Shown: positions 1,454 through 12,914 of the stretch, piece by piece | Position numbering within the stretch: the first letter of the stretch is position 1 | Layout: the number at the start of each line of letters is the position of its first letter | Origin: Capsulimonas sp. | GTDB lineage: Bacteria; Armatimonadota; Armatimonadia; Armatimonadales; Capsulimonadaceae | DNA length: 12,914 nt | Direction of reading: 5' to 3' | NCBI GenBank assembly: GCA_025963815.1 | Contig: JAOQAA010000702.1 | Coordinates: 1-12,914 of the forward strand | Notes under the pieces: generated by a model | What the model saw: the letters and a program-made list of their open reading frames with translations, nothing else | What the model was told of the DNA's origin: nothing | Databases searched by the model: none | Position numbers and translations under genes: made by a program

Positions 1454-2482
1454 ATGATGCAGGAAACACCTAAGATCTCGGTTCGCTCGATCGCACAGCA
1501 TTTAGGGCTTTCACCCGCGACGGTTTCGCTTGTGCTGAACGGCCGGCGTCCGACTAGCTTCGTTTCCGTGGCGACGCGCAAGCAGGTTTGGGCGGCCGCG
1601 AAAGAGCTGGGATATCCGATGGAGCGGCTGCGTTCGACCCGCCCGCTGCTGGAGCGAGTCTCCGTGTTCGTCCACGCTGGCCCCAACCCTGTCTACTCAG
1701 AAACCGTGCTGGAGATCTGCCGCGTGCTTAATACGCATCAAGTGCAGGTCTTTATCCGTACGGTAAGGTCCGATCAGGAGGCGACGACGGCGGCGCGCGA
1801 GATGTACGCCCGCCAGGAGATCGACGCCGCGATCTTTGTCGGCTCCCGCCAGGAGATCACCCCGCTGGACGCCCCCAGTGTCTTTGTTGGCGAAGTGCCG
1901 CCGGACGCCCATGTCTGGCAGGTGCGCGCGGACAACGAGGGGGGCGGGCGCTCGGTAGGCGAATATCTCTGGTCTCTCGGACACCGTTCGATCGGCGCTA
2001 TTGTTCCAGGACGCGTCAACCTGGCGGGAGAGCGCCGTCTGGCCGGTCTGAGAGCGTGCTGGGAAGAGCATGGCAAGGTCATTCCCGAAGACAATGTGCT
2101 GCGCTGCGATCCGAACGAAACCTCGGACGCCACTCTGGATGGGAAGTTTTCGGAGTTTCTCATCCGGAACCGATCCTCTGATCACCCGGTCACCGCATTC
2201 TTCTGTTTCAATGACTGGGTTGCCGGTTCAGCGCTGAAGATTTTGCGCGGTCAGGGCGTCAAAGTCCCGGAAGAGATCTCTGTCGTCGGGTTCGATGACA
2301 GCATCTACACGGAGCTGCTGGATCCTCCGCTGACGACTGTTCATAATTCCTTTGACGCTTTGGGCGCCGCCGGCGCCAATTTGCTGCTGGAAATGGCTGG
2401 GAATCCGACAACTGAACCCCGAGTCGTGGTTGTTCCGTGTCGTTTGGTCTGCCGGCAATCTTGCCTGCCGCCGATCTCGTAA
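1454..2482 (+). CDS. LacI-family transcriptional repressor
   Basis: This 342-residue protein has the LacI/GalR layout. An N-terminal helix-turn-helix (about residues 8-31) reads SVRSIAQHLGLSPATVSLVL followed by NGR. A hinge region follows (TRKQVWAAAKELGYPMERL, 41-59). A periplasmic-binding-protein-like effector domain spans about 67-342 and ends with the diagnostic EISVVGFDDS (274-283) and LTTVHNSFDALGAAGANLLL (293-312). The turn between HTH and hinge (RRPTSFVSVATRK) is slightly longer than in typical family members. Two adjacent ATGs (1454 and 1457) are possible starts; I use the first, and neither has a good Shine-Dalgarno site. Proteins of this type bind an operator until a sugar ligand releases them. 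The gene converges on the GH127 gene, so this protein is a plausible local regulator of the minus-strand CAZyme operon. Its ligand cannot be read from the sequence. Confidence 0.95.
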   Translation: MMQETPKISVRSIAQHLGLSPATVSLVLNGRRPTSFVSVATRKQVWAAAKELGYPMERLRSTRPLLERVSVFVHAGPNPVYSETVLEICRVLNTHQVQVFIRTVRSDQEATTAAREMYARQEIDAAIFVGSRQEITPLDAPSVFVGEVPPDAHVWQVRADNEGGGRSVGEYLWSLGHRSIGAIVPGRVNLAGERRLAGLRACWEEHGKVIPEDNVLRCDPNETSDATLDGKFSEFLIRNRSSDHPVTAFFCFNDWVAGSALKILRGQGVKVPEEISVVGFDDSIYTELLDPPLTTVHNSFDALGAAGANLLLEMAGNPTTEPRVVVVPCRLVCRQSCLPPIS

Positions 2483-2525: not shown

Positions 2526-4424
2526 TCAAGGCGCGGAAGAGGATCGTATCGGAAAATAGATGGTATAGGTTTCGTCCCGCACATCGGTGAGTGGAATGAA
2601 GCGCATGCCGCGATCCTGTCCGGTCGTTCGATAGTATCCCGTATTCCACCAGCCATGATGCCGCTCGCGGTCGGGTATCAGCATCGCCTCCGGCCGCTGG
2701 GCGTCGCCGATCAGCGTGCGCTCCTCATCCACCAATCCCGCCAGCACGAGAGGGCCGTCCAAAAAGACGACCGTGTTCGGTTCGTCCGGAAGCGATTCGG
2801 TGGAGAGCGCTTTCGGCAGGACGAGATGCACGCGGTCATCGCTCCATGTTCTGCGAATAGTAAGAAATCCCGAGCAAGATGTATCCGGTTGTATCCGTTC
2901 GCCGTTGATGGAGACTTCGGGCGTTTTGCTCACCCACCATGGCGTGCGCAGGGTGAGCGTGAACGCCGCCGGCTCGGCGCATTGTACGCGAATGTCGTAG
3001 ACATAGGCGCTCGGGCGATGAGCCGGGATGTGGGGTGTGTGGACGTGCTGAATGCCCATATGTCCCTCATGAGTAAATTTTTGGCCGACACTCAGGCCGT
3101 TCTGAACGTCCTGCTCGATGATGATCTCCACTTGCGTTCCGAACGCCTCCCAGCGCGTGTGCGAAGGCAGGTATTGGCTGACGGTAAAGCCAGCATCATT
3201 TGAAAACGCGATGGACTGATCGTAGTGGGAATGCGCCTGCATGAGAGTGCCGTGGCAGCACCAGAAATCGTCGGTTGGCGTCCCCCAGGTTTTGACGCTC
3301 CCAGCCGCGAGCGGCAGAAAATAGCTGACCATTCCGGTGTCGGCGTTCTGCTGAGAGTAAATGGCGTTGAGGAAGTTGCGCTCCCAGTAGTCGGCGTACT
3401 GGGCGTCGCCGGTCCAGCGATAGAGATACTGAGCGACGCGCATCATGTTGTAAACGGTGCAGTGTTCGTGCGGACTTTGCAGGCGCGCGGAAAGGGAGAA
3501 CGGCGGCTGCCAGACCTCGCCGCAGCTTCCGCCGCCGGTAGGATAGGCGCCGCGCTCTGTCACCGCGCTTCGCCAGAACGCCTCCACGATGCGCCGCCAG
3601 CGCTCGTCGCCTGTTACCTCCCAGGCGCGCGCTGCGCCGAGGATCTCCGGGATCTGCGTGTTCGCGTGTTTGTTGGTCAGCACGTCCTCACCCGCGATCA
3701 GAGGATCGAAGAGACGCCGTCGGTCATAGCGATGGATCAACTCTCGATGCTCAGGATTGTGGGTAACGCCATACAGACCCGCCCACACTTCGAGCATGCC
3801 GCCGGTTTCCCAGTCCAGAATCTCGTCCATCTGCTCACGCGTGAACGGCTCCGTCCACCGCGAGAACCAGCGGGCGAACCGAACCAAAATCTCCAGCGCC
3901 TGCGCGTTCTTCGCCGCTACATGCATATCGAGCAGTCCCATCAGCAGCTTATGCAGTGTATATTGCGGCGCCCACGCCGTTTCGCCCCGCGCGATCCGGT
4001 GCAGAAACTTCTCCGAGAACGGTCCGGCCCATTCCCCGCCGTTCGCCTGCTGGCAGCGCCCCAGCTCCGCGACAATCCGCGTTGCCTTCGCCTGCAATTC
4101 GATATCGCCTGATTGCGCTCCGATCCGCGCCGCCGCCGAGAGCCAGTGTCCTAGGATATGTCCGCGCAATTCGCACGTAAGCGACTCCCATCCCCAATGC
4201 CACGTTGCCGGCCCGCCCTCCGTCTTTGCGCCAACCGTCGTACCTGACGATCCTGAGTAGCTCCATAGCCCGGCCTCCAGAAGATAGGGCCGCAGCAGAT
4301 TCTCGTTGTCCAGGCTGGCGACATACTTTTTGTTCAGCGCGAAGCGCTGATAAAACGGACTGGGCAGCAGGGTTGTTTGCCCTGGGATGGCCTCTTGTAG
4401 GAGGATTTCTGTATTCAATGTCAT
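2526..4424 (-). CDS. GH127 beta-L-arabinofuranosidase-like glycoside hydrolase (former DUF1680)
   Basis: This 632-residue protein has the full length and motif order of GH127, whose characterised member HypBA1 removes beta-1,2-linked L-arabinofuranose. N-terminal landmarks are PSPFYQRFALNKKYVASL (21-38), WESLTCELRGHILGHWLSA (79-97) and YTLHKLLMGLLD (155-166). The HypBA1 zinc-thiolate site appears conserved: Glu303 in GGGSCGEVW as the likely general acid/base, Glu320 and Cys322 in HEHC, and the vicinal pair Cys389-Cys390 in FWCCHGT (codons at 3255-3260), where the first Cys of the pair is the nucleophile in HypBA1. A beta-sandwich follows. There is no signal peptide, so the enzyme is probably cytoplasmic and acts on imported oligosaccharides. 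The start ATG is 22 bp downstream of the lyase-like gene's stop, implying co-transcription. Related DUF1680 families (GH137, GH142, GH146) also act on arabinosides, so the exact linkage is uncertain. Confidence 0.88.
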   Translation of the reverse strand: MTLNTEILLQEAIPGQTTLLPSPFYQRFALNKKYVASLDNENLLRPYLLEAGLWSYSGSSGTTVGAKTEGGPATWHWGWESLTCELRGHILGHWLSAAARIGAQSGDIELQAKATRIVAELGRCQQANGGEWAGPFSEKFLHRIARGETAWAPQYTLHKLLMGLLDMHVAAKNAQALEILVRFARWFSRWTEPFTREQMDEILDWETGGMLEVWAGLYGVTHNPEHRELIHRYDRRRLFDPLIAGEDVLTNKHANTQIPEILGAARAWEVTGDERWRRIVEAFWRSAVTERGAYPTGGGSCGEVWQPPFSLSARLQSPHEHCTVYNMMRVAQYLYRWTGDAQYADYWERNFLNAIYSQQNADTGMVSYFLPLAAGSVKTWGTPTDDFWCCHGTLMQAHSHYDQSIAFSNDAGFTVSQYLPSHTRWEAFGTQVEIIIEQDVQNGLSVGQKFTHEGHMGIQHVHTPHIPAHRPSAYVYDIRVQCAEPAAFTLTLRTPWWVSKTPEVSINGERIQPDTSCSGFLTIRRTWSDDRVHLVLPKALSTESLPDEPNTVVFLDGPLVLAGLVDEERTLIGDAQRPEAMLIPDRERHHGWWNTGYYRTTGQDRGMRFIPLTDVRDETYTIYFPIRSSSAP

Positions 4425-8228: not shown

Positions 8229-9854
8229 CTACCGACTAATCCAGAACTCCTGCGTCACCGGCCCCGCCGTCTGCACCTTAGGTTCGACAGTGCGCCCCCA
8301 TTGATACGCGCCAAGCACCACGTGGACGGGGAACTTGCTGCGCGGTGGGATCGGAAGGAACTCCAGCGTTCGGTTGTCGTCTCGCAACCGAACGGGGCCG
8401 GAAATAACGTAGAGCTGGACTGGCAGGCCGGCGTCGGAAGTCGCGTTCAAGTGGATCGATTTTGCGCCGGCCTTCTGGTCGCCGATGCGGGCGAAGTCGA
8501 TGATCTGCATCGCGCCGTCGCGGTTGATGGTGTTCAGCCAGGCGTGGCCGGGCCGATCGGCGCGGCGGTACTCAGCGTTGCCGTTTTGATAGGCCATGAT
8601 CCAGGGCTCCCAGGGTGAGCCCTGCTGGATCAGGCCGCCGCGCCGCATCCAGATTTGGAATGTGTCTGGACCAGTTTGCTTGAGCGCGCCGCTGCTGACT
8701 TTGAACTGAATCGGTCCGGGCGCATGGCCGACGGGCGCGCCGCCATAGATCTGAACTGGCGCTTGATCGAGAGATGTCGCCGTGACTTTGAAGGTGGCGC
8801 CGTTCGCCAGAAACTGTGGATGCAGATCGGCTCCGCCCGTTGTGGCGAGCGAGATAGGCTGGCCGTTTTCGACGAAGTCGATCACCTGCGGTTTCTTGGC
8901 GAGGCGTGAGGCGGCGTAGTCGTTGATCGTGCGCGCCATTTCTTCGTCGAAGTACCAGAGCGCTTTGGTCGGATCGCCGACCCACTGAGCATAGGGCACG
9001 GGTTTTCCGTCGGGCGTTCCGAACTTATCCGGATCGATTAGCCATCCCGATTTGGGATCGATTGGCTTCAGTGTTATGACTCCATTGCCAGACGCGCCGG
9101 CGGGCAGGCGATACTGAATTGCTTTATGGATAAACATCGCGAGGATGGGGGCGACTTCCGGGTTCCACTCATAATGCCCATTGCCGATCTCGGCAAACTC
9201 GCCGGCGATCACATCATCACCCGCCGCGCGCTGCTTGAGTGTGGAGGCTATGTCCTTGCGCCAGACCTCGCCCCACTTGTCGCCGCCGACTTCTGCGTAT
9301 TCGGACGTGATGTGGAGGGTGGGGATACCTGGCGTCATCTTTTCGATCCAGCCTTTGTAGGGGAAGACCGCCACCATGCGCGACGGCAGCGTCGCCGCGA
9401 GATTATAGACGAACGGCGTGGAGGCCGAATGCGCCGTTACGATCATCGGGGCGTTCGCAAGCTCCGTGTATCCTGACTCTTTGCTTAGCGCCGCGAGGAT
9501 TTGCAGGATGGCCTGCGACATTGGCTTGGCGGGACTGAGCGTGCGCACCGACTGGTTTTTATCGTCGAAGTCGTCACGCGGTGAGAGCCAGACGATGGCG
9601 AGATTGTCTTCGGTCGCCTCCTTGCGGATCACGTCGTCCTCGAACATCGGCTGCTCCAGCATATTTTGCACGCCGAGGATCACGCCCCGGAGATGCTGCG
9701 CCTTCGGCGGAACCCAGAGATACGCGCGGCGCAGGGGATCCTGTCCGACGCGTATGGAGTACTGCCAGGTATCGTCGGCGTGCGCGGCGGGCGTCAGCGG
9801 CGCGGCGGCAAGCAGGGCCAGCGCAAGAAGGGAGTAATGAGCATTCAGTCGCAT
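8229..9854 (-). CDS. Secreted alpha/beta-hydrolase-like protein with C-terminal Ig-like domain (divergent paralogue)
   Basis: This 541-residue protein has a clear signal peptide (hydrophobic core, then PAAHA with cleavage after Ala26). The frame stays open about 129 codons further upstream, but that stretch overlaps the preceding gene and is low-complexity basic sequence. The ATG at 9854, which opens the signal peptide 14 bp after the upstream stop, is therefore the start. Residues about 42-250 fit an alpha/beta-hydrolase: RAYLWVPP (43-50), a nucleophile-elbow-like VTAHSAS with Ser143 (codon 9426-9428), acidic candidates in TSEYAE (Glu185) and NGHYEW with His227. The elbow reads A-H-S-A-S rather than the G-H-S-A seen in the two upstream paralogues. 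A shared LWYFDEEMA block opens a beta-rich middle region. The last 90 or so residues (ATSDAGLPV, IPPRSKFPV) form an Ig/MBG-like domain. The sequence suggests a serine esterase or hydrolase, but the substrate is unknown and the family is not one I recognise. Confidence 0.8.
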   Translation of the reverse strand: MRLNAHYSLLALALLAAAPLTPAAHADDTWQYSIRVGQDPLRRAYLWVPPKAQHLRGVILGVQNMLEQPMFEDDVIRKEATEDNLAIVWLSPRDDFDDKNQSVRTLSPAKPMSQAILQILAALSKESGYTELANAPMIVTAHSASTPFVYNLAATLPSRMVAVFPYKGWIEKMTPGIPTLHITSEYAEVGGDKWGEVWRKDIASTLKQRAAGDDVIAGEFAEIGNGHYEWNPEVAPILAMFIHKAIQYRLPAGASGNGVITLKPIDPKSGWLIDPDKFGTPDGKPVPYAQWVGDPTKALWYFDEEMARTINDYAASRLAKKPQVIDFVENGQPISLATTGGADLHPQFLANGATFKVTATSLDQAPVQIYGGAPVGHAPGPIQFKVSSGALKQTGPDTFQIWMRRGGLIQQGSPWEPWIMAYQNGNAEYRRADRPGHAWLNTINRDGAMQIIDFARIGDQKAGAKSIHLNATSDAGLPVQLYVISGPVRLRDDNRTLEFLPIPPRSKFPVHVVLGAYQWGRTVEPKVQTAGPVTQEFWISR

Positions 9855-9868
9855 AGTATTGCTGTTTC

Positions 9869-11527
9869 TTATCGGACGATCGAGAATGTCTGTGTGATCG
9901 GCTCGGCGGATTGCAGGAGCGGTTCGATGGAGCGTCCGTACTGCCAGGCGACGACCGTTATCTTCACTGGAAACTTCGCGCGCGGCGGGATCTTCGTGAA
10001 CGTAAGCGTATTGTCGTTCGTGACCTCCGCTGGCCCCTCCCGCACGTAGTAATAAACGGGAACTCCAGCGTCGGACGTCGCGCTGAGTTTCAGTGATTTT
10101 ACGCCCGCTTTCTGATCTGGAAGCTGCGGAAATGTAATGTGCTGCTCCGCGCCCTTGATGTTGCGCAGTGGAATCGTCAGCAGCGCCTGCTGTTCCACCT
10201 TCTTGTACTGAGCGTCGCCAGGATGCACCGCCAGAAGCCATATCGCATTGGAGCGCTTGACGTTATCCATTCCCATACGATAGTAACGGATCGAGAATGT
10301 GTCCGGTCCGGTCTGAATGACGGGGCCGCAGATGCGCGAAATCACGACGGGACCGCCGCCGCTGGCACGGCCGACCGGAGAGCCGGCGGGCAGTCCCGTC
10401 CATTTTTCAGGATTGCCCGCCGGCACGGTATCCAAAAACGTTCCTGTCAAACGGAAGCTGACGCCGTCGGCGAGTGGCTCAAATGGGATGCGCACGCCGG
10501 CGAAGGGATCATTATAGGGCAGGATATGTCCACCCTGAACGTATCCCACAAGCTGCGGCTTTTTGCCGCGCGGCCCGGCGTAATACTTCTCCGTCGCCAG
10601 CGCCGTTTCTTGGTCGAAGCACCAGAAGGCGTTTGCTCGATCGCCCATGTATTGGCTATAAGGAGCGGGCGGGGCTGTGGGCGGACTCTGTCCGCGCCAG
10701 CGATCTACCAGCCATTCCGACTTCGGATCGACGGGTGTCAGCGCCACAGGCGCATCGAGCGGCGCGTGCGCGGGCAATCGATATTGGGCGGCTTTGCGGA
10801 GAAAGAGCGAAAGATATCCGACCAGCTCATCAGACGATCCAAAGTGCGAATTTGCGGCGTCCGCGAGCATGGCGACCGGGGCCTTGGGATGTTTGGCCTC
10901 GTAGTTCAGCGCCGGAGCGATACGACCTTCGAGCCATTCGTACTCGCCCATCACCATCAATCCGGGAACGCCGTCGAGCGTGCGGTCTCCCCAATCGGGG
11001 TTCGGCTGACCGCTGCCGGTCATATTTGTCAGCGGCGCGTCGCCATGAACGGAAAGGATCGCCAGCGTCCGTCCCGGATTCCAGGCCCCGAAGTTCCACG
11101 GATAGCTCGCCGCCGCCGAATGGCCGATAGGAACAATGGGCGCATACTTCAGCTCTCCGTATCCCGACTCTTGCGCGAGATCGTTCATCATCCCATTAAA
11201 ATCATCGCCGGCGCCTTTATCAAATCGAAACACGGCATTGAGAAATGGCGTGACCCAGACTTCCGCGATCCCCAGATCGCCCAGCGTCTTCCGAAACGCC
11301 GGGTGCTCCAGAATATCTTCCTCCAGCATATTGTGCTGCCCAACGACCACCGCCCGCACACGCTTGCAGTTTGGCGGAACCCAAAGAAACGCCCTTGGAT
11401 GTCCATTGATTTCGGAGGATGTCACGGATGTTACCGGGACCGACCATTGCCACTCCGCAGCGTGCGAGGGCGCAGCGAGAAGCGATAGTGTGACGGTGAT
11501 ATAGGCTGTTGCGTGGCGAAGATTCAT
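9869..11527 (-). CDS. Secreted alpha/beta-hydrolase-like protein with C-terminal Ig-like domain
   Basis: This 552-residue protein has a signal peptide (residues 1-23, ending PSHA). Residues about 45-252 look like an alpha/beta-hydrolase: RAFLWVPP (45-52), VVVGQHNMLEE (60-70), the nucleophile elbow IGHSAA with Ser137 (codon 11117-11119), an acidic candidate in MGEYEW (Glu195 or Glu197) and a late His228 in NSHFG. FWCFDQE (301-307) starts a beta-rich middle region that includes GLPAGSPVG and QTGPDTFSI. The C-terminal 90 or so residues (LSATSDAGVPVYYYVREGPA, then IPPRAKFPV and a final QTFSIVR) resemble bacterial Ig/MBG domains. The triad is inferred from position and motif, not from a structure. 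The gene lies 32 bp after its upstream paralogue and 14 bp before the next, so all three are likely co-transcribed. A carbohydrate esterase is a reasonable guess given the CAZyme neighbours, but substrate and family are unknown. Confidence 0.82.
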   Translation of the reverse strand: MNLRHATAYITVTLSLLAAPSHAAEWQWSVPVTSVTSSEINGHPRAFLWVPPNCKRVRAVVVGQHNMLEEDILEHPAFRKTLGDLGIAEVWVTPFLNAVFRFDKGAGDDFNGMMNDLAQESGYGELKYAPIVPIGHSAAASYPWNFGAWNPGRTLAILSVHGDAPLTNMTGSGQPNPDWGDRTLDGVPGLMVMGEYEWLEGRIAPALNYEAKHPKAPVAMLADAANSHFGSSDELVGYLSLFLRKAAQYRLPAHAPLDAPVALTPVDPKSEWLVDRWRGQSPPTAPPAPYSQYMGDRANAFWCFDQETALATEKYYAGPRGKKPQLVGYVQGGHILPYNDPFAGVRIPFEPLADGVSFRLTGTFLDTVPAGNPEKWTGLPAGSPVGRASGGGPVVISRICGPVIQTGPDTFSIRYYRMGMDNVKRSNAIWLLAVHPGDAQYKKVEQQALLTIPLRNIKGAEQHITFPQLPDQKAGVKSLKLSATSDAGVPVYYYVREGPAEVTNDNTLTFTKIPPRAKFPVKITVVAWQYGRSIEPLLQSAEPITQTFSIVR

Positions 11528-11559
11528 GACGTGTGCAATCCCACTCGGTGCTAGATGAC

Positions 11560-12914
11560 CTATCTCAAAATGTAAAATGTTTGTGTCACCGGTTCGGCGG
11601 TTTTCAGTAATGGCGCCACAGAGCGCCCGTATTGCCAGGCCGTCACTGTAACGGCGACGGGATATTTGGCGCGGGGCGGAATCGCGGTGAGCGTCAGTGT
11701 GTTGCCTTCAGCAATCGCAGGCCCACTTTCAACAAAATAGGAGACGGGAACGCCGGCGTCCGAAGTTGCCGCCAGCGTAATCGGCTTGGCCTTGGATCGT
11801 TGGTTTGGGATTGCCGGGAACGTGATGTGCTGGTCGGGCCCGTTCGTATTGCGCACGGGCAGACGCATTTCCGCCTGCTGTATCGCGGGGCGATAGTCGC
11901 CATCGCCGGGGTGAGTCGCGGCGAACCAGAATTCGTAGTGGTCCAGGCTGGCCCCCAGGCCTTTCTCCATCTGGAATGTGAATATGTCGGGTCCGATTTT
12001 GACGAACGGACCGGTAATTCGATCGATGGAGATTGGGACGCCGCCAGTTGCGTGTCCGACGGGGGAGCCAGCGGGCAGGCCGGTCCAGCCTGCCGGGCGC
12101 GGACTGCCGCCGGGAACCGTGTCCAGAAATGCGCCGGTCAGATGGAAGGTAACGCCGTCGGACTCCGGCTCGAACTTGAGATTGACCTGCTGATGCGTGT
12201 TACTCTGCGGCGAGATCTGACCGTCCTGAACATAGCCCAGCAGATCGACTTTCTTGCCGCGATACGCCGCTTCGTAGGCGTCGGTCGCCTTCGCCATCTC
12301 TTCATCGAAGTACCAGAATGCTTGCCCGGGATCGCCTTTGTACTGGCCGACCGGCGCGGGCAATGCCGTCGGCGGTTGGTTCTTGCGCCAGCGGTCGGCG
12401 AGCCATCCTGTTTTGGTGGGATCGATGGGAGTCAGCTTGGGCGGACCATCGCCCTTCCAATCTTTCGGCAGGCGATACTGCACGGCCTTTTGGATATAGA
12501 GGATAAGATAATCGATCTTGGCGTTGGCGGCCACAAAATGGCTCTGCGCCGGGCCGGCGGCCATGCTTAGAGGCGTAAGGGGATGCTTGCGTCGTTCGGC
12601 GAGGCCTTCGTTCGCCCAGCTATCGGCGGATTCATATTCGCCCATTGTCTCCAGGCTAGGGACGTAATCAATGGTCTTATCGCCCCAAATATCGGGTGCG
12701 AAGATTTTATCGCGGAAGTAGGGCCACTGGCCGCTGACGGAGATCGCCGCCAGCGCCCTGTCCGGATTCCAGGCCGCGAAATAGTACGGCCAGCTCGCCA
12801 TCGCCGAATGTCCCATGGGGGCGACCGGCGCAAAAGCCAGCTCCCCATACCCTGATTTGTCCGCGAGATCCTTCATCAATGTATTGAAAACATCGCCCGC
12901 GCCCTGATCGAATC
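11560..12914 (-). CDS. Secreted alpha/beta-hydrolase-like paralogue, 5' end outside the window
   Basis: About 450 residues are visible, with the frame open to the window edge. The last readable residues there (FDQGAGDVFNTLMKDLADKS) align with FDKGAGDDFNGMMNDLAQES of the next gene, so the start lies beyond 12914. The internal TTG/ATG codons near 12875 are not starts. The nucleophile-elbow-like MGHSAMAS (Ser codon 12805-12807), MGEYES and QSHFV supply the same putative Ser/Glu/His set as the neighbour. FWYFDEEMA then opens the middle beta-rich region (GLPAGSPVG, IGPDIFTF). The C-terminal Ig/MBG-like domain follows (AATSDAGVPVSYF, IPPRAKYPV, final QTFYILR). It is closer to the 9869-11527 product than to the 8229-9854 product. 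By analogy with the other two it should carry a signal peptide. It is the first visible gene of the minus-strand operon, so the promoter is probably outside the window. Confidence 0.82.
   Translation of the reverse strand, partial: FDQGAGDVFNTLMKDLADKSGYGELAFAPVAPMGHSAMASWPYYFAAWNPDRALAAISVSGQWPYFRDKIFAPDIWGDKTIDYVPSLETMGEYESADSWANEGLAERRKHPLTPLSMAAGPAQSHFVAANAKIDYLILYIQKAVQYRLPKDWKGDGPPKLTPIDPTKTGWLADRWRKNQPPTALPAPVGQYKGDPGQAFWYFDEEMAKATDAYEAAYRGKKVDLLGYVQDGQISPQSNTHQQVNLKFEPESDGVTFHLTGAFLDTVPGGSPRPAGWTGLPAGSPVGHATGGVPISIDRITGPFVKIGPDIFTFQMEKGLGASLDHYEFWFAATHPGDGDYRPAIQQAEMRLPVRNTNGPDQHITFPAIPNQRSKAKPITLAATSDAGVPVSYFVESGPAIAEGNTLTLTAIPPRAKYPVAVTVTAWQYGRSVAPLLKTAEPVTQTFYILR

Follow-up and report, generated by a model that had tools for sequence, protein, structure and literature searches.

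Putative exported esterases of an unnamed alpha/beta-hydrolase family in polysaccharide-degradation loci, represented by three paralogues in Capsulimonas

On contig JAOQAA010000702.1 of Capsulimonas sp. (G000:C247 in our collection), three consecutive minus-strand genes, here called A, B and C, encode related hydrolase-like proteins. The entire contig of 12,914 nucleotides is the window analysed here, and its edge removes the 5' end of gene C. What kind of enzyme do these genes encode, and on which polymer might it act? With a probability of roughly 0.62, we consider that A, B and C encode serine esterases that are exported and belong to a single, uncharacterised family of alpha/beta-hydrolases; they would act on an acidic, arabinose-containing plant polysaccharide.

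The three proteins are homologous throughout their visible length, far above chance. In pairwise protein comparison, B and C form the closest pair (53% identity, E 1e-163), and A shares 34% identity with B (E 3e-97) and 35% with C (E 2e-68). The genes are co-directional and carry the shared motif order that an earlier annotation from the letters alone (hereafter the sequence-only reading) had described. LWVPP is present in A and B, the corresponding part of C being missing; the nucleophile motif is AHSA in A and GHSA in B and C; LWYFDEE, FWCFDQE and FWYFDEE follow in A, B and C; TGPD in A and B corresponds to IGPD in C; and ATSDAG[LV]PV...IPPR[SA]K[FY]PV is common to all three. Signal-peptide-like N-terminal stretches, read by eye, occur in the products of A and B, the two in which that reading had seen them, and are consistent with export. 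No further copy of the family was found in the window's own assembly (about 69% complete) at E <= 1.

The hydrolase-like domain proposed from the motifs is seen as an alpha/beta-hydrolase fold in the model of the gene B protein and in a structure search with it. In this model and in the columns of a 122-row family alignment, Ser137 follows strand 5, a Glu follows strand 7 and His228 follows strand 8 (Table 1), an order that fits the predicted Ser, Glu and His triad. According to one source, the catalytic acid of the superfamily stands after strand 7 in most families, or at the end of strand 6 (PMC7034887). Residue 161, with which strand 6 ends, is occupied in the 122 rows of our alignment by Lys (77), His (35), Ser (9) or Arg (1). 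The acid is therefore more likely to follow strand 7, since Lys or His occupies the other position in 112 of 122. Two residues after the serine, at position 139, Ala (73 of 122), Met (16) and Cys (11) are found, and the window proteins read HSAA, HSAM and HSAS. Two members with Pontibacter names, P0031 and P0036, carry Ala in place of the predicted nucleophile and keep His136 and His228; judging from these residues, they are possibly inactive or altered relatives.

In the favoured explanation, Ser137 would be activated by His228 and the Glu after strand 7. The serine would form an acyl-enzyme, from which water would then release the acyl group, following the usual two-step route within the N-terminal domain. 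The beta-rich C-terminal half may help to hold or recognise the polymer. Searching this half against Pfam at E <= 0.1 gave no family matching more than 3 of 74 members, with a best E of 0.005. Big_12 (Ig-like) matched one member (E 0.1) and BiPBP_C matched P0140 (E 0.0082, below its cut-off). No likeness of this half to a named family emerged from these searches.

A PDB sequence search with gene B gave no match up to E 10. The family profile A2 found esterase 713 (1qlw) as its best match (E 0.0017, over the Ser-Glu-His region), the next nine matches being at E 0.068 or worse; the acid of esterase 713 lies at the end of strand 6. In its relative SulE, the catalytic acid, Glu232, likewise stands at the end of strand 6 (PMC10356948). 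Our family resembles esterase 713 and SulE in lacking the GXSXG consensus and, for SulE, in the predicted use of Glu as the acid (PMC10356948). It differs in having Lys or His at the end of strand 6 in those 112 rows, the conserved Glu following strand 7 instead. An esterase-713-like triad was rejected on this ground, since that position holds no acidic residue. Among the 50 fold matches listed for the gene B model, the enterobactin esterase Fes, cutinases, the feruloyl esterase Est1E and esterase D/S-formylglutathione hydrolase share 7-15% identity. Profile comparison with Fes of E. coli K-12 aligned only 32 N-terminal columns (1% probability), and comparison with a plasmid 'acetylxylan esterase' aligned only a short N-terminal stretch (about 1% probability).

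Which ester would be cleaved? O-acetyl would come first, on base rate only, and a uronate methyl ester second. In the narrower form of the favoured explanation, with which its odds overlap, methyl or other alkyl esters would be removed from uronic acid carboxyls, letting the lyase and GH88/105 enzymes act; this would resemble the action of BT1017, a member of CE19, and we consider it possible but well short of even odds. BT1017 (PDB 6GOC) is an alpha/beta-hydrolase pectin methylesterase with a signal peptide, which is needed for growth on the pectin rhamnogalacturonan II (RG-II) and shows that this fold can serve such an activity; it has a GXSXGG motif, an Asp acid, a zinc site and a C-terminal DUF3826 (PMC7939467). 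Our family would share with it the alpha/beta-hydrolase core, the serine esterase type, a signal peptide and an additional C-terminal module, as well as the placing of the acid, in the loop that follows the last strand but one, and of His after the final strand. On the other hand, the family has GHSA followed by Ala, Met, Ser or others rather than GXSXGG, Glu rather than Asp, and a beta-rich C-terminal half rather than DUF3826. No DUF3826 was seen: the products of A and B gave no Pfam match at all, and that of C gave only Me-amine-dh_H, below the cut-off. 6GOC was not among the 50 fold matches listed, though a fold relation beyond these 50 may exist. The Lys or His at residue 161 (77 and 35 of 122) could pair with a carboxyl group, which would suit a methyl ester; nothing computed here, however, separates a methyl from an acetyl ester.

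The enzyme type is ordinary. Judged by the libraries and paper searches used here, no description of the family exists so far. The products of A, B and C have no Pfam or NCBIfam match above cut-off, which agrees with the sequence-only reading that no recognised family fits. The sub-cut-off match of gene C to Me-amine-dh_H (E 0.15) was dropped as chance, as was that to the equivalent NCBIfam model (E 0.097). The Pfam scan of the family covered alignment A1, leaving out the 55-row A-class alignment A4; for its 49 members, which include the window proteins, nothing but the PF05426 portion of a single fusion was matched at E <= 0.01. Literature searches (outside subscription papers and preprints) turned up no description of the family recognisable from titles or abstract openings.

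The family is real, widespread and without a name. A search with gene B found at least 2,454 homologues at E <= 0.001 among 7,999 candidates scored, and one with gene A at least 165 among 8,000. Where source names are given for the 120 matches listed for gene B, they read 'hypothetical protein', to which a few entries add 'alpha/beta hydrolase'; among the 120 listed for gene A, one is a pimeloyl-ACP methyl ester carboxylesterase and the other legible names are hypothetical protein. Thousands of related public proteins, then, were found without a family name, the named ones being mostly 'hypothetical protein'. A pattern scan of a one-genome-per-species collection gave 189 loci with a relative, and the titles of the best 80, which were kept, include Bacteroides, Pontibacter, Pedobacter, Dysgonomonas, Verrucomicrobia and Phycisphaerae. 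The gene is rare among the window's own kin (4 of 61 genomes, its own included), two of the four being weak partial matches only. If its members are esterases, the family would fill a gap in the digestion pathways of pectin- or gum-like polymers, and it would be a new family for annotators to name. One 752-residue member, P0216, has two N-terminal stretches matching PF11875 (DnaJ-like C11; E 4.3e-14), unexpected in such a bacterial protein.

Open reading frames (ORFs) of the 80 loci were called by script and clustered, and cluster representatives were named by Pfam; the family gene was labelled in 76 loci. Among these 76, the labels comprise GH97 (26 loci), PF05426 lyase (25), GH127/146 (24), GH28 (23), GH43 (20), GH88/105 (18), SusC (18), SusD (15) and PF00144 (14). 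At least one of 14 chosen labels (glycoside hydrolases, lyase-like families, PF00144) occurs in 65 of the 76. Of the labelled genes that directly adjoin the family gene in the same orientation, GH127/146 is the most frequent (16 cases for 80 gene copies); 33 neighbours in this position are unlabelled. For GH127, the only partner so compared, 123 PF07944 matches in about 143.5 Mb of 24 genomes would give about 0.02 expected per 21.6-kb locus, and 8 of 24 loci hand-chosen from the 80 contain one. This background is rough hand arithmetic, in which pieces of split genes count apart, some loci are shorter than 21.6 kb, and regions rich in carbohydrate-active enzymes have a higher local background.

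Three plasmid loci, from Hymenobacter, Fibrella and B. finegoldii, show the same setting, and on all three the family gene is annotated 'hypothetical protein'. On the Hymenobacter plasmid, a homologue of the window's lyase-like protein stands just downstream of the esterase gene, behind GH97, PF05426-type lyase, GH88 and arabinofuranosidase genes; the gene sets of the other two are similar. Six of the 80 loci contain a homologue of the window's lyase-like protein, as do G005 and the Hymenobacter plasmid; these are 41-59% identical to it across 600-1,180 residues. In G005, a genome of the window's taxonomic family, one family copy immediately follows a PF05426 lyase gene, and two further copies adjoin a GH43 gene. 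GH78 and uxuA are present in the B. finegoldii locus, fucP is on the Hymenobacter plasmid, and GH95 is among the labelled neighbours.

The sugars indicated by the specificities of GH88/105, GH28, GH127/146, GH43, GH95, GH78, uxuA and fucP are uronic acid, arabinose and perhaps rhamnose or fucose, which would fit a pectin- or gum-like plant polymer. The labels in the 76 loci and the three plasmid loci thus bear out the polysaccharide-degradation setting that had been proposed, and deacylation of a polysaccharide would be plausible. The neighbouring lyase-like and GH127/146-like enzymes would then degrade the polymer chain. The frequent uronate-processing partners (PF05426 lyases, GH88/105 and GH28) and uxuA would also suit removal of methyl esters from uronates. 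That the enzyme is instead a feruloyl esterase, or an esterase for other aromatic groups, with arabinose side chains as its target seems to us very improbable.

Fusions tie the family to the same setting. In P0037 a PF05426 lyase is fused to the family domain, and in L035 and L039 the fusion partner is PF00144; these two types of fusion argue that the family is linked to polysaccharide attack, and they offer direct handles for finding the substrate. The lyase fusion again favours a uronate methyl ester. The extra part of L024 has no Pfam match. A secreted peptidase, another non-ester alpha/beta-hydrolase or a mainly binding protein, present in these loci for another reason, would be an unlikely explanation: Ser is conserved in 120 and His in all 122 rows, the partners in the fusions are a lyase and a hydrolase of PF00144, and none of the 20 neighbour-cluster representatives scanned matched a Pfam family named as a peptidase. 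PF00144 itself includes some peptidases.

Returning to the putative esterases, did the three copies arise at this locus? A tree of the 122 rows (FastTree, rooted at the midpoint) separates A from B/C at the root with support 1.0. The tree partner of B is P0004, that of C is P0238 and that of A is P0124, so the copies are older than the window locus, and recent duplication was rejected. More than one copy was found in only 4 of the 80 fetched loci (L023, L056, L065, L078), both classes in two (L056, L065). A search with A in the 24 genomes of 25 chosen loci (two lie in one genome) gave an A-class match, assigned by a cut of >300 bits, in four; A-only genomes would be missed by this count, since the genomes were picked through B-like loci. 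A and B are side by side in one of the 24 (G098) and about 4.9 kb apart on one contig in another (G096), and the triplet was rejected as a conserved unit. Of the sequence-only reading as a whole, the fold, the triad order, the lack of a family and the polysaccharide setting were supported; local duplication followed by specialisation, the dedicated triplet and a GH127 neighbour were not.

As read directly from its undivided sequence, P0140 unites copies of both classes, first named B and A above, within a single chain, which suggests that the two classes can act together. Tentatively, and as a minority view, we consider that the family is large, ancient and undescribed and has two esterase classes, which in some organisms are paired, adjacent or fused as in P0140. 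Such pairs may remove two different esters from one acidic, arabinose-rich plant polymer, with a pathway (PF05426 lyase, 1192-residue lyase-like protein, GH146-like, GH97, GH28) that has not been worked out.

Table 1. Features of the window and predicted residues of the gene B protein
Feature	Position	Strand	Remarks
Gene A, A-class secreted putative esterase, 541 residues	8229..9854	-	ATG at 9854; AHSA nucleophile motif; SEYAE after strand 7; NGHYE
Gene B, B-class secreted putative esterase, 552 residues	9869..11527	-	subject of the structure model (mean pLDDT 95.4)
Gene C, B-class paralogue, 450 residues visible	11560..12912	-	5' end cut by contig edge
Alpha/beta-hydrolase domain of gene B, approximately residues 27-253 (to about 319 in some aligned chains)	10769..11449	-	model, fold search
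Ser137 of gene B, predicted nucleophile	11117..11119	-	after strand 131-136; Ser in 120/122
Glu195-Tyr-Glu197 of gene B, one Glu the predicted acid	10937..10945	-	after strand 189-194; Glu in 109/122 and 116/122
His228 of gene B, predicted base	10844..10846	-	after strand 218-223; His in 122/122
Beta-rich C-terminal half of gene B, residues 320-552	9872..10570	-	model; no Pfam family
Lyase-like protein, 1192 residues	4447..8025	-	weak PF05426, E 1.1e-5, 25.5 bits against cut-off 22.2
GH127/GH146-like arabinofuranosidase	2526..4424	-	PF07944 E 9.9e-90; PDB 5opj E 9.9e-64
LacI-family regulator, convergent	1454..2482	+	Pfam/ORF list

In the window, C, B, A, the lyase-like gene and the GH127/146-like gene form a row of five minus-strand genes. 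They may belong to one operon, because the gaps between them are 32, 14, 203 and 22 bp in this order. The longest ORF over gene A (8229-10241) reaches 129 codons upstream into gene B; the ATG given in Table 1 is the likelier start, as the signal-peptide-like stretch then follows. The last enzyme of the row had been called GH127. Its nearest PDB chain is 5opj, a GH146 enzyme, and chains named GH127 match much more weakly. The window also contains a glycerate kinase gene and the LacI-type regulator, which, from its position only, might control the cluster.

Some further neighbours recur near the esterase gene in other genomes. DUF4861 proteins are found in two of the three plasmid loci (L095:20315-21529 and L096:21071-22195), and our literature search found no paper linking DUF4861 with polysaccharide. 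A family with a 1191-residue representative (L074:6172-9747, and seven further loci) has no Pfam match at E 1e-5. The same holds for a 913-residue neighbour family (L084:11597-14338), present in 9 of the 76 loci, Sphingobacterium included, which resembles the PL40 ulvan lyase Uly1040 (9vtk, E 1.6e-26).
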